A stretch of 64,000 bases of DNA, taken from Xanthomarina gelatinilytica (GTDB taxonomy: Bacteria > Bacteroidota > Bacteroidia > Flavobacteriales > Flavobacteriaceae). The notes below the pieces were generated by a model. It saw only the letters and a list, made by a program, of their open reading frames with translations. It had not been told where the DNA came from and did not search any database. The translations under genes and the position numbers were made by a program. The stretch is taken from positions 186,001 through 250,000 of the forward strand of contig NZ_ANLA01000004.1 of NCBI RefSeq assembly GCF_000348685.1, written 5' to 3'. This document shows, piece after piece, positions 51,861 to 64,000 of this stretch (its first letter is position 1; each line of letters begins with the position of its first letter).

Positions 51861-51934
51861 GGGGGATTAGCTCAGTTGGCTAGAGCGCTACGCTGGCAGC
51901 GTAGAGGTCATCGGTTCGAATCCGATATTCTCCA
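51861..51934 (+). tRNA. tRNA-Ala(GGC)
   Basis: Seventy-four bases fold as a complete cloverleaf: acceptor GGGGGAT/ATTCTCC, D-arm GCTC/GAGC, anticodon stem CTACG/CGTAG with loop CTGGCAG (anticodon GGC), and T-arm ATCGG/CCGAT with loop TTCGAAT. The G3-U70 pair, the identity element of alanine tRNA, is present. Discriminator A; the CCA end is not encoded (the next bases are CAG). The gene stands alone with its own promoter. Confidence 0.97.
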
Positions 51935-61612: not shown

Positions 61613-62221
61613 ATGGCTTTCGAATTACCGAAATTGAAATATGCTTATGATGCTTTAGAGCCTCATATAGATGCACGAACAATGGAAATACACCATACCA
61701 AACACCATCAAGGTTATACAAACAATTTAAACAACGCCATAGAAGGCACAGACTTAGAAGGAAAAACCATTGAAAACATCCTTATTAACCTGGACATGAA
61801 CAACAAAGCTGTTAGAAACAATGGTGGAGGTTTCTATAACCATTCCCTTTTCTGGGAAGTTATGAATCCTGAAGGTAAAGGATATTTGTCTGGAGATTTA
61901 AAAGATGCCATTATTGCCCAATATGGCAATGTAGATGCCTTTAAAGACGCTTTTAGCAAAGCTGCTGCAACCCAGTTTGGTTCTGGTTGGGCTTGGTTAT
62001 GCGTTCATAAAGGTGGAAAAGTGGAGATTTGCTCTACACCAAACCAAGACAATCCCCTAATGCCTGGAGTAGGTTGTGGTGGCACACCAATTTTAGGATT
62101 GGATGTTTGGGAACATGCTTATTATTTAAACTATCAAAATAGAAGACCAGATTATATCAATGCTTTCTTTAACGTTATTAACTGGAACGAGGTTGAAAGA
62201 CGTTATGCAGAAGCAAAATAA
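61613..62221 (+). CDS. sodA: Superoxide dismutase, Mn/Fe family
   Basis: 202 residues. Metal ligands His27 (MEIHHTKHH), His77 ([10 protein letters not shown]), Asp164 and His168 (LDVWEHAYY). The loop with Gln-Asp near TPNQDNP points to the Mn or cambialistic branch rather than the iron enzyme. It dismutates superoxide in the cytoplasm. The gene is followed by the repeated hairpin elements. Confidence 0.96.
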
Positions 62222-62307: not shown

Positions 62308-62379
62308 AAAAAAGGTGAACGAGAGTTCACCTTTTTTGCCCCAAATCTACCATAAACTTAACCTACTTATGTTATGGTA
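62308..62379 (-). ncRNA. Twin element copy 1: candidate 72-base small RNA with terminator
   Basis: Read on the minus strand: a -7-like box TATATTTG (62390-62383), three bases, then TACCATAACATAAG (62379 onward) and a spacer ending GATTTGGGGC, then the hairpin GGTGAAC-TCTC-GTTCACC and a run of six T (ending 62308). A 5' stem TACCATAA/TTATGGTA can form around a 16-base loop. It matches copy 2 (62538-62611) at all but a few positions, with the promoter-like box in the same place. The plus-strand reading of the hairpin also works as the sodA terminator. Confidence 0.5.
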
Positions 62380-62463
62380 GGCCAAATATAGAATGGTCGT
62401 TACTCTTAAAAAAAATAAATAGATAAACGGCTTATAAATTAGGCTAAAAGAGGATATATTAAT

Positions 62464-62490
62464 TATTTAAGGGTAAAATCCCCTTAAATA
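62464..62490. repeat. Ten-base-stem hairpin between the twin elements
   Basis: Arms TATTTAAGGG (62464-62473) and CCCTTAAATA (62481-62490) are perfectly complementary around a 7-base loop. There is no T run directly behind it. Its place between the two twin elements is notable; role unknown. Confidence 0.45.
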
Positions 62491-62537
62491 TGAAGTTGAA
62501 GATATTTTTTTTGCCTTAAAACTGAAAAGAAGAAAAT

Positions 62538-62611
62538 AAAAAAAGGCGAACGAAAGTTCACCTTTTTTTGCCCCAAATCTACCATGAACTTAACCTACTT
62601 ATGTTATGGTA
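62538..62611 (-). ncRNA. Twin element copy 2: candidate 74-base small RNA with terminator
   Basis: Same structure as copy 1 with few changes: a -7-like box TACATTAG (62622-62615, one base off consensus) three bases before TACCATAACATAAG, then a GATTTGGGGC spacer, hairpin GGTGAAC-TTTC-GTTCGCC (one G-U pair) and a run of seven T. One base change in the 5' stem (CATGAAC on the plus strand against CATAAAC in copy 1) weakens it. Copies are 231 bases apart in direct orientation. Confidence 0.5.
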
Positions 62612-62737
62612 CATCTAATGTAGTTTTATTTTATTTAATGTTTTTAAATTTTTAGACGAAATGCATATTTATCAGTTAAAAGTATGTTTTTGATAGACAA
62701 ACCGTTTAAAATTAATGATTTAACCCTAGTCTTGAAA

Positions 62738-64000
62738 TTAATACGCACGTTCTTTATTCCCTTCATAGAAATTAATAAAAGCCCTATTAACCACACGATT
62801 ACCTCCTACGGTTGGATAGTTTCCTGTAAAATACCAATCCCCTAAATTTTTAGGACAAGCTTTGTGCAAATTTTCCACAGGTTGAAAAATGGTAACAACT
62901 TCTGCTTTTACAGTATCGTCTGAGATCAATTCTGCAATTTTATTGGATATGGCCTCATCTGAAAACTCAGAATATAAATCTTTTACAAAATTTCTAACGT
63001 CCTTGTCTTCTAAATGTACCTGTGCTTTACATTTTTCATAAACCTCTTGTACCAAATGGTATTTGTTGTTTTCTTCCAGCAACTCCAACATGGCCCTAAA
63101 AGCAATTAAATCTTCAAGTCTTGCCATGTCTATACCATAACAATCAGGATAACGAATTTGAGGTGCAGAAGAAACCACTATGATTTTTTTAGGATACAAT
63201 CTATCCATCATTTTTATGATACTCTTTTTAAGCGTGGTTCCCCTTACAATACTGTCGTCTATAATAACCAGGTTATCTGTTGGTTTAATAACACCATAGG
63301 TAACATCGTAAACGTGAGCCACCAAATCGTCACGACTACTGTCTTCCGTGATGAAGGTTCTTAATTTAACGTCTTTAATGGCTATTTTTTCAATTCGAGG
63401 TCTTTCGCTTAAAATATCTGTTACTTTTTCTGCAGACAAACCTCCATTGCCATTCAATATTGCTTGTGTTTTCTTTTTGTTTAAATGCTCTTCAACCGTT
63501 TCTATCATTCCAAAGAAAGAGGTTTCTGCTGTATTTGGAATATAAGAGAACACCGTGTTTTTAGTGTCGTTATCAATGGCTTCAAGAACTTTTGGCATTA
63601 ATAGTTTTCCCAATTTTTTACGTTCTTGATATATTTCAGCGTCACTTCCCCTTGAAAAATATATACGTTCAAAAGAACATGCTTTTCTCTCTAAAGGTTC
63701 AATGATTTTTTTAATGGACACATCACCAGATTTTTTGGTAATGATAGCATGACCTGGCTCCAGCTCCTTTACATCTTCAAAAGCCACATTGAAAACCGTT
63801 TGGATTACGGGACGTTCTGAAGCTACAACCACAACTTCGTCGTCTTTATAGTAATAAGTTGGCCTTATTCCTGCTGGATCCCTTAACACAAAGGAATCTC
63901 CATGACCTAAAAGTCCAGCCATGGCATAACCACCATCCCAGTTTTTAGAAGCACGCTTTAAAATTTTTGCCACATTCAATCGCTCGGCAATTAAAGGTGA
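62738..64000 (-). CDS. purF: Amidophosphoribosyltransferase, N-terminal part outside window
   Basis: The frame is open to the window edge (SPLIAERLNVAKIL...), so the N-terminal catalytic Cys is missing from view. About 420 residues are visible: the rest of the Ntn-hydrolase glutaminase domain (WDGGYAMAGLLGHGDSFVLRDPAGIRP) and the PRT domain with the PRPP loop VIIDDSIVRGTTLKKSI. It makes 5-phosphoribosylamine, the first step of purine synthesis. The C-terminal tail (about 100 residues after YEKCKAQVHLED) is longer than in E. coli PurF, which fits the long Bacteroidota form. Confidence 0.93.
   Translation of the reverse strand, partial: SPLIAERLNVAKILKRASKNWDGGYAMAGLLGHGDSFVLRDPAGIRPTYYYKDDEVVVVASERPVIQTVFNVAFEDVKELEPGHAIITKKSGDVSIKKIIEPLERKACSFERIYFSRGSDAEIYQERKKLGKLLMPKVLEAIDNDTKNTVFSYIPNTAETSFFGMIETVEEHLNKKKTQAILNGNGGLSAEKVTDILSERPRIEKIAIKDVKLRTFITEDSSRDDLVAHVYDVTYGVIKPTDNLVIIDDSIVRGTTLKKSIIKMMDRLYPKKIIVVSSAPQIRYPDCYGIDMARLEDLIAFRAMLELLEENNKYHLVQEVYEKCKAQVHLEDKDVRNFVKDLYSEFSDEAISNKIAELISDDTVKAEVVTIFQPVENLHKACPKNLGDWYFTGNYPTVGGNRVVNRAFINFYEGNKERAY

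Follow-up and report, generated by a model that had tools for sequence, protein, structure and literature searches.

Which kind of element are the two near-identical repeats of 72-73 nucleotides (nt) that lie, with a spacing of 231 bases from start to start, on the minus strand of a 64,000-nucleotide stretch of Xanthomarina gelatinilytica DNA (contig NZ_ANLA01000004.1, positions 186,001 to 250,000; hereafter the window)? An earlier note on this DNA had described two near-identical direct repeats 231 bases apart and had considered either tandem small RNA (sRNA) genes or a repeated terminator module; the repeats were indeed recovered at 62308-62379 (copy A) and 62539-62611 (copy B). We propose that they very probably encode a multicopy repressor sRNA resembling the FopS sRNAs of Bacteroides, with tandem genes yielding one trans-acting RNA whose pairing over start codons would block translation. 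The family itself, the conservation of its promoter and terminator, the complementarity to targets, the correlated change of sRNA and target and the reduced synonymous change in paired codons can all be read from the sequences; that the RNA is transcribed, that it represses instead of activating, and which physiological signal it answers are inferred.

Promoter, seeds and terminator of the two copies

Read on the minus strand, both copies give TACCATAACATAAGTAGGTTAAGTT[T/C]ATGGTAGATTTGGGGC followed by an A-run, a hairpin and a T-run, and in RNA letters the sequence of both is UACCAUAACAUAAGUAGGUUAAGUUYAUGGUAGAUUUGGGGC, then a short A-run, a strong hairpin and a T-run. The copies differ, as listed before, by a T/C change in the 5' stem, by changes in both loop and stem of the terminator, and in the lengths of homopolymers. 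The 25-base core, with up to three mismatches allowed, occurs twice in the 64 kb and in none of 100 shuffles.

As the earlier note had pointed out, a TAnATTnG box precedes the sequence TACC by three bases on the minus strand. This putative -7 box is TATATTTG in copy A (62383..62390) and TACATTAG in copy B (62615..62622). The assignment to the minus strand holds as far as sequence can tell, the best TAnnTTTG-like box standing at one and the same offset in 231 of 284 family copies chosen by their exact core. In Flavobacterium psychrophilum, the promoter box is reported at -12 to -5 (PMC9723704). With the box so placed, transcripts are predicted to begin on the conserved A of ACCAUAA, at 62378 and 62610, and the sRNAs would measure about 71 nt (copy A, 62308..62378) and 72 nt (copy B, 62539..62610). 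Each of the tandem genes would thereby have a TAnnTTTG-type promoter of its own for minus-strand transcription.

The predicted fold of the minus-strand RNA has three parts. The 5' hairpin (62348..62379 in copy A, 62580..62611 in copy B) has a conserved core and carries in its loop the first putative seed, CAUAAGUAGGUU, which is identical in the two copies and complementary to AACCUACUUAUG, a motif that contains a start codon. It is followed by a single-stranded second seed, GATTTGGGGC (62338..62347 and 62570..62579), whose complement is found at the small open reading frame (ORF) described below, and by a Rho-independent terminator hairpin, with perfect 13-nt arms in copy A (62308..62337) and 14-nt arms that are 93% complementary in copy B (62538..62569). 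The layout suggested earlier, of promoter, 5' hairpin, G-rich single strand and terminator, is thus recovered, and a promoter and Rho-independent terminator of its own are what is expected of a trans-acting base-pairing sRNA. Each copy has a stronger predicted fold than any of its 200 dinucleotide-shuffled versions (z -5.0 for copy A and -4.5 for copy B). Most of this strength comes from the terminator; the part without it, which holds the weak predicted 5' hairpin, has a z of -1.7. Compensated changes were found in 7 of 21 predicted pairs, every one of them in the terminator.

Could the repeats be a bidirectional terminator or a DNA-binding module that occurs twice and has no RNA function? 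Such a module would look much like what lies between the convergent genes here, a hairpin with an A-run on one side and a T-run on the other. This explanation is nevertheless barely credible: the terminator drifts across copies where the core does not, and the core is complementary to mRNA starts. The terminator module of the earlier note likewise fits poorly with the conserved 40-nt part beyond the terminator and with the fixed offset of the promoter box, and its suggestion of selection on that part is borne out by the same sequences. A DNA search of the X. gelatinilytica genome returned copies A and B and no third copy. The elements are therefore not a dispersed terminator or repetitive extragenic palindromic (REP) repeat, and the check for further copies ended with two rather than with many plain terminators.

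About 50 bases upstream of the sRNA lies a recurrent element that is absent from the earlier note, as is the purF-like neighbour. It reads CCGTTTATCTA in copy A (62420..62430) and TGCATTTCGTCTAA in copy B (62652..62665), both on the minus strand. The motif TTYRWCBRA, which was selected by eye and compared only with base-composition shuffles, occurs in 155 of the 283 regions upstream of sRNA copies (mean in shuffles 13.9), with most occurrences falling into two position bins, and also upstream of the two candidate peptide targets presented below, namely the 42-amino-acid (42-aa) peptide gene (13/32; shuffled mean 1.7) and the second peptide gene (7/29; 1.6). A regulator common to the sRNA and the two peptide genes is plausible from this distribution. 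The motif is possibly of the LytTR type.

An RNA family of the Flavobacteriaceae

The two elements are members of an RNA family that is common throughout the Flavobacteriaceae and, it appears, has not been described. By simple DNA search, 29 of 60 genomes carry it, that of X. gelatinilytica included; all 29 are among the 37 of the same family and none among the 23 outside it. A covariance model was then built from 34 copies, including copies A and B, which score 97.4 and 94.4 bits against the model of which they are part. This model, the search that had been called for earlier, matched 213 of 249 Flavobacteriaceae genomes and 174 of 202 genera, with up to seven copies per genome. Named carriers in a listing of at least 80 loci include Zobellia, Maribacter, Winogradskyella, Algibacter, Cellulophaga, Robiginitalea, Aquimarina and two Flavobacterium species.

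Among 296 genomes sampled from the class, 12 matched, seven of them in Flavobacteriaceae (X. gelatinilytica included) and five, weakly, elsewhere (31.6-35.7 bits). For comparison, the model can reach 29.6 bits when it matches a family locus on the wrong strand. Four of the five outside matches consist of a terminator without the core. The fifth (L472, genome G365) adds ACCATA...TCATGGTAA and a partial 5' stem, and lacks the loop and GATTTGGGG. The class sample thus held no convincing member outside Flavobacteriaceae, and viral contigs gave no match. A pattern match near a gene that we take to be hisS (L072) was dismissed as probably belonging to a terminator region.

Across copies the core is nearly constant while promoters and terminators drift. 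In the 284 copies of the promoter count and in the rows of alignment A2, which were picked by their exact core, core conservation is given by construction; it is independent of this choice in the copies from the DNA search and, in part, in the covariance-model set. The sRNA comes in two types, GGUAGAUUU and GGUAAGAUUU, type 2 having one extra base. Genome G022 carries a diverged copy (L030:1475-1554, the same as L433:3371-3450; 50.8 bits) that keeps the GGUAGAUUUGGGG end and has a different loop; its 42-aa target likewise lacks CCTACTTATG at the start, and this genome is missing from one set of sRNA matches used to compare core and drift.

In the window, the sRNA genes face the convergent ORF 61613..62221 (plus strand), presumably sodA, as named in the earlier note. 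Upstream, on the same strand as the sRNAs, lies a gene at 62738..64000 that runs past the window edge and that we take, from its sequence, to be purF-like. Both neighbours rest on their ORFs and on synteny: the sRNA array lies within 1.5 kb of both genes in 81 of 116 loci, of purF only in 17, of sodA only in 10 and of neither in 8, a count that includes truncated loci and more than one entry for some organisms. Four loci from three genomes (L041, L042, L045 and L046) have sRNA copies with neither gene in the fetched stretch, and L045 and L046 also have a different G-run and terminator. The earlier suggestion of a stress-linked pair next to sodA is supported only in part: its location is widely conserved, but the candidate targets are small-peptide and envelope genes.

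The window search of Rfam gave no gathering-level match for the sRNA copies; its sole match at that level in the window is a tRNA gene at 51861-51934 (plus strand). Permissive matches to STnc40, sraA and STnc250 rest largely on the terminator, and those to STnc40 and sraA occur on both strands. No description of the family was found in the open-access main texts searched.

Antisense sites at a 42-aa peptide gene

In nine genomes the DNA search also gave short matches to the complement of the sRNA at one other place, in the leader of a small ORF. This ORF is flanked by a CoA-transferase gene, presumably scoB-like, and by a convergent gene, presumably for an ABC transporter. In X. gelatinilytica this ORF encodes the 42-aa peptide MNFASNLPKQPTNYESKLYTSLQNTGRFIKSMLYLTKKIFML (G000:C4:424085-424210), with antisense sites at 424018, 424057 and 424096. 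The three sites are spaced 39 nt apart and the third lies inside codons. In full-length relatives, the sites, up to four per gene, span leader, start and first codons, and many loci keep just one or two. By reading of the sequence, the peptide is basic with a hydrophobic C-terminus such as KSLxYLTKKIFML.

The complementarity is far above background. Strong ORF matches comprise 43 loci, including the nine first noticed through the complement and leaving out L252 as a duplicate. Their longest exact complements to the sRNA range from 10 to 27 nt (median 17), whereas 408 other start regions have a median of 7 and do not exceed 12. With those nine loci excluded, 23 of 34 still exceed 12 nt. The duplex of the X. 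gelatinilytica sRNA with this mRNA is predicted at -40.5 kcal/mol, a strength equalled by none of 459 other start regions, a background that omitted regions with both seed motifs. A profile of the protein matched 122 of the 249 genomes (E ≤0.01), many matches being weak or C-terminal only, and the sRNA is present in 121 of these 122 (Fisher p 1e-10). The exception, G076, has an ORF match of 21 residues with an E of 0.007.

Sequence change at the gene points to selection on both RNA and protein. In 22 aligned genes, the ratio of nonsynonymous to synonymous change (pN/pS) over codons 14-42 is 0.27 as uncorrected pairwise proportions, so that the peptide appears to be kept. By the same measure, pS is 0.20 in the paired codons 1-13 versus 0.715 further on; this lowered synonymous change is also as expected under selection on the RNA sequence. 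The target moreover varies with the sRNA type. In 38 genomes with both sequences, which are related and so represent fewer independent events, the contiguous site AAATCTAYC (or TCTACCATR) occurs in 30 of 31 with type 1 sRNA and in 0 of 7 with type 2. In the X. gelatinilytica genome, CCCAAATCTAYC with one mismatch has 41 matches versus 24 for the reversed control; 30 of the match contexts were read, and many lie within genes.

We suggest that seed 2, the single-stranded GGUARGAUUUGGGG, would pair with CCCCAAAUCUACC in leaders, and that the loop seed would pair with AACCUACUUAUG and so enclose the target start codon in the duplex. Such pairing would most likely block translation initiation, with the strongest effect on the 42-aa mRNA. 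The opposite outcome, in which the sRNA activates translation of the peptide mRNAs, draws on the sequence of some 42-aa leaders, which could fold AGATTT-CCCC-AAATCT near the start and be opened by pairing; in the clearest sites the start codon itself lies within the duplex, and we regard activation as quite improbable.

Extended antisense to a small, conserved peptide is also the mark of type I toxin-antitoxin pairs such as IstR/TisB, in which the sRNA has extended antisense to a small-peptide mRNA. The sRNA could then be an antitoxin, with the 42-aa peptide as toxin and other targets acquired later; several sites with up to 27 nt of complementarity and the co-occurrence in 121 of 122 genomes are in keeping with this. 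We nevertheless think it unlikely. In type I systems the antisense RNA lies at or next to the toxin gene, whereas here the two loci are unlinked (C4:424085 versus C4:248308), many sRNA-positive genomes lack an ORF match, and further candidate targets exist, with start-codon matches at ordinary genes. Alternatively, the 42-aa mRNA might mainly serve as a sponge whose sites titrate the sRNA and free other targets. The sites, up to four per gene and in X. gelatinilytica three at regular spacing, and the similar upstream motif in both promoters would suit a sponge, which is rather improbable in view of the protein-level selection on the peptide, the start codon among the sites and the many loci that retain one or two sites only.

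Start codons at other loci and relation to known sRNAs

The motif complementary to the loop was searched with a following purine, excluding sRNA gene copies with the usual next base, and gave 74 matches in 120 genomes, against 54 for a permuted motif; the 128 contexts were classified by script. Apparent start codons of ORFs of at least 50 aa account for 24 of 74 loop-motif matches versus 4 of 54 permuted ones (p 9e-4). Starts of small ORFs outside larger ones add another 21 versus 7, for a total of 45/74 versus 11/54 (p 5e-6); some copies of both peptide genes are among these 21. By reading, 18 of the 24 larger ORFs start out as secreted proteins do, with a signal or lipoprotein sequence, and a CarboxypepD_reg-like domain is present in one of these 18. 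Among the other six, L328 (at about position 1500) encodes a LytTR response regulator (Pfam LytTR, 9.8e-19) whose start codon lies in AACCTACTTATG. A trans-acting sRNA is expected to be complementary, in a conserved manner, to translation starts away from its own locus, and the sequences show this.

A second peptide stands out among these loci. It forms a conserved hydrophobic family of 22-40 aa (MKNFKRIVLLIALIFFASKVLF and similar), with profile matches in 34 of 120 genomes. Of 30 loci (L438-L467; 30 of the 34 matches were used, and five of the 30 are profile rows picked by the motif), 21 have ACCTAC immediately ahead of the start, where it is a joint commonest hexamer. In X. gelatinilytica (L462; G000:C4:556135-556200), AACCTACTTATA directly precedes the start. 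The same genome offers a secreted protein whose start codon lies within the loop-complement motif (C4:177518) and a membrane protein with a likely GTG start just downstream of it (C19:26216). Identity of the second peptide with DUF2633 was rejected (19.5 bits, below the Pfam cut-off of 25), and neither peptide family has an accepted Pfam or NCBIfam assignment. In L259 (G033, at about position 1500), from a genome without a 42-aa ORF match, a basic peptide of 22 aa, MRAFKRGLLYRLPSLKRFLFTK, has its start codon in the seed match and a similar upstream box. The candidate targets would accordingly comprise the 42-aa peptide gene, the second peptide, and scattered lipoproteins and secreted proteins.

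Several results weigh against start-codon repression. As to the 42-aa gene, 92 of the 213 sRNA-positive genomes have no ORF match, and it therefore cannot be the sole target; 21 weaker, mostly C-terminal ORF matches, counted separately from the strong ones, have a median complement of 9 nt with just four above 12; and the compensating site AAATCTTAYC is found in 0 of 7 type-2 genomes, type 2 going with loss of the site. The near-invariant 5' hairpin makes covariation uninformative there. As to the loop, AACCTACTTATG shows no raw excess, with 74 exact matches versus 70 for the reversed pattern and, with one mismatch in six genomes, 142 versus 242; only its start-codon position is informative. 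The start-codon test in turn had a single permuted motif as its control, used crude rules for calling ORFs and drew on genomes that are related. Where the sRNA is listed as absent (18 genomes), cognate and control matches number 3 and 9, versus 71 and 45 in the others (p 0.03), but those 18 average just 2.8 Mb. Finally, a ranking by duplex energy did not single out the three other candidates of X. gelatinilytica: background starts are equally strong or stronger in 167 of 459 cases for the second peptide, 61 of 459 for the secreted protein and 40 of 459 for the membrane protein.

Multicopy sRNAs that repress at the translation start are known from other phyla. Qrr and MicA/RybB are multicopy or envelope-target sRNAs of this kind, and so is LhrC of Listeria, which PMC11697453 names. 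The likeness lies in several similar copies or envelope targets and in repression at the translation start; a target here differs in having antisense repeats that reach into codons. Nearer in phylogeny, the Rfp sRNAs of F. psychrophilum are flavobacterial too and some are conserved beyond the species (PMC9723704); the main text of that report contains no occurrence of sodA, superoxide or purF.

The nearest described kind is FopS. According to PMC11697453, the FopS or GibS sRNAs of Bacteroides (Rfam RF04319, BTncRNA_FopS) are multicopy, with 14 paralogs in B. thetaiotaomicron, measure about 65-70 nt, and have a canonical Bacteroidota promoter, a Rho-independent terminator and a single-stranded 5' stretch, with pairing near susC-type start codons. 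Binding by RbpB is a further mark of FopS. The present sRNA shares with the FopS sRNAs the multiple copies, the similar length, a Rho-independent terminator, the predicted start-codon-proximal pairing and, at the level of the 231 of 284 boxes, a canonical promoter directly upstream. The string UUCAUGGUA-(gap)-AGAUUU is common to the Rfam consensus and to the present sRNA, in which it lies partly in the 3' arm of the weak 5' hairpin. It differs in that its copies are few and mostly in tandem, in the hairpin predicted at its 5' end, in its seed and in having small peptides as candidate targets. Membership in RF04319 was rejected, with scores of 19.7 bits for copy B and 19.8 for one type-2 copy against a gathering score of 56. 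Common descent of the two families is possible.

Taken together, these results indicate that the sRNA probably switches off small-peptide and cell-envelope genes through start-codon pairing. More tentatively, it might belong to a core envelope-control circuit of the Flavobacteriaceae, in which a multicopy sRNA and its small-peptide targets stand under a common upstream regulator site, possibly of the LytTR type. In the chief target of such a circuit, whose antisense sites reach into codons, RNA pairing and protein would coevolve, and the peptides would perhaps be membrane-active and toxin-like, restrained by the sRNA. If the proposal is right, an sRNA conserved across most sampled genera of a large bacterial family, with neither a gathering-level Rfam match nor a description in the literature searched, would have candidate targets that are readable from sequence. 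It would provide a test system for sRNA control in Bacteroidota outside the gut, and it points to two conserved small-peptide families that await an accepted assignment in Pfam or NCBIfam.
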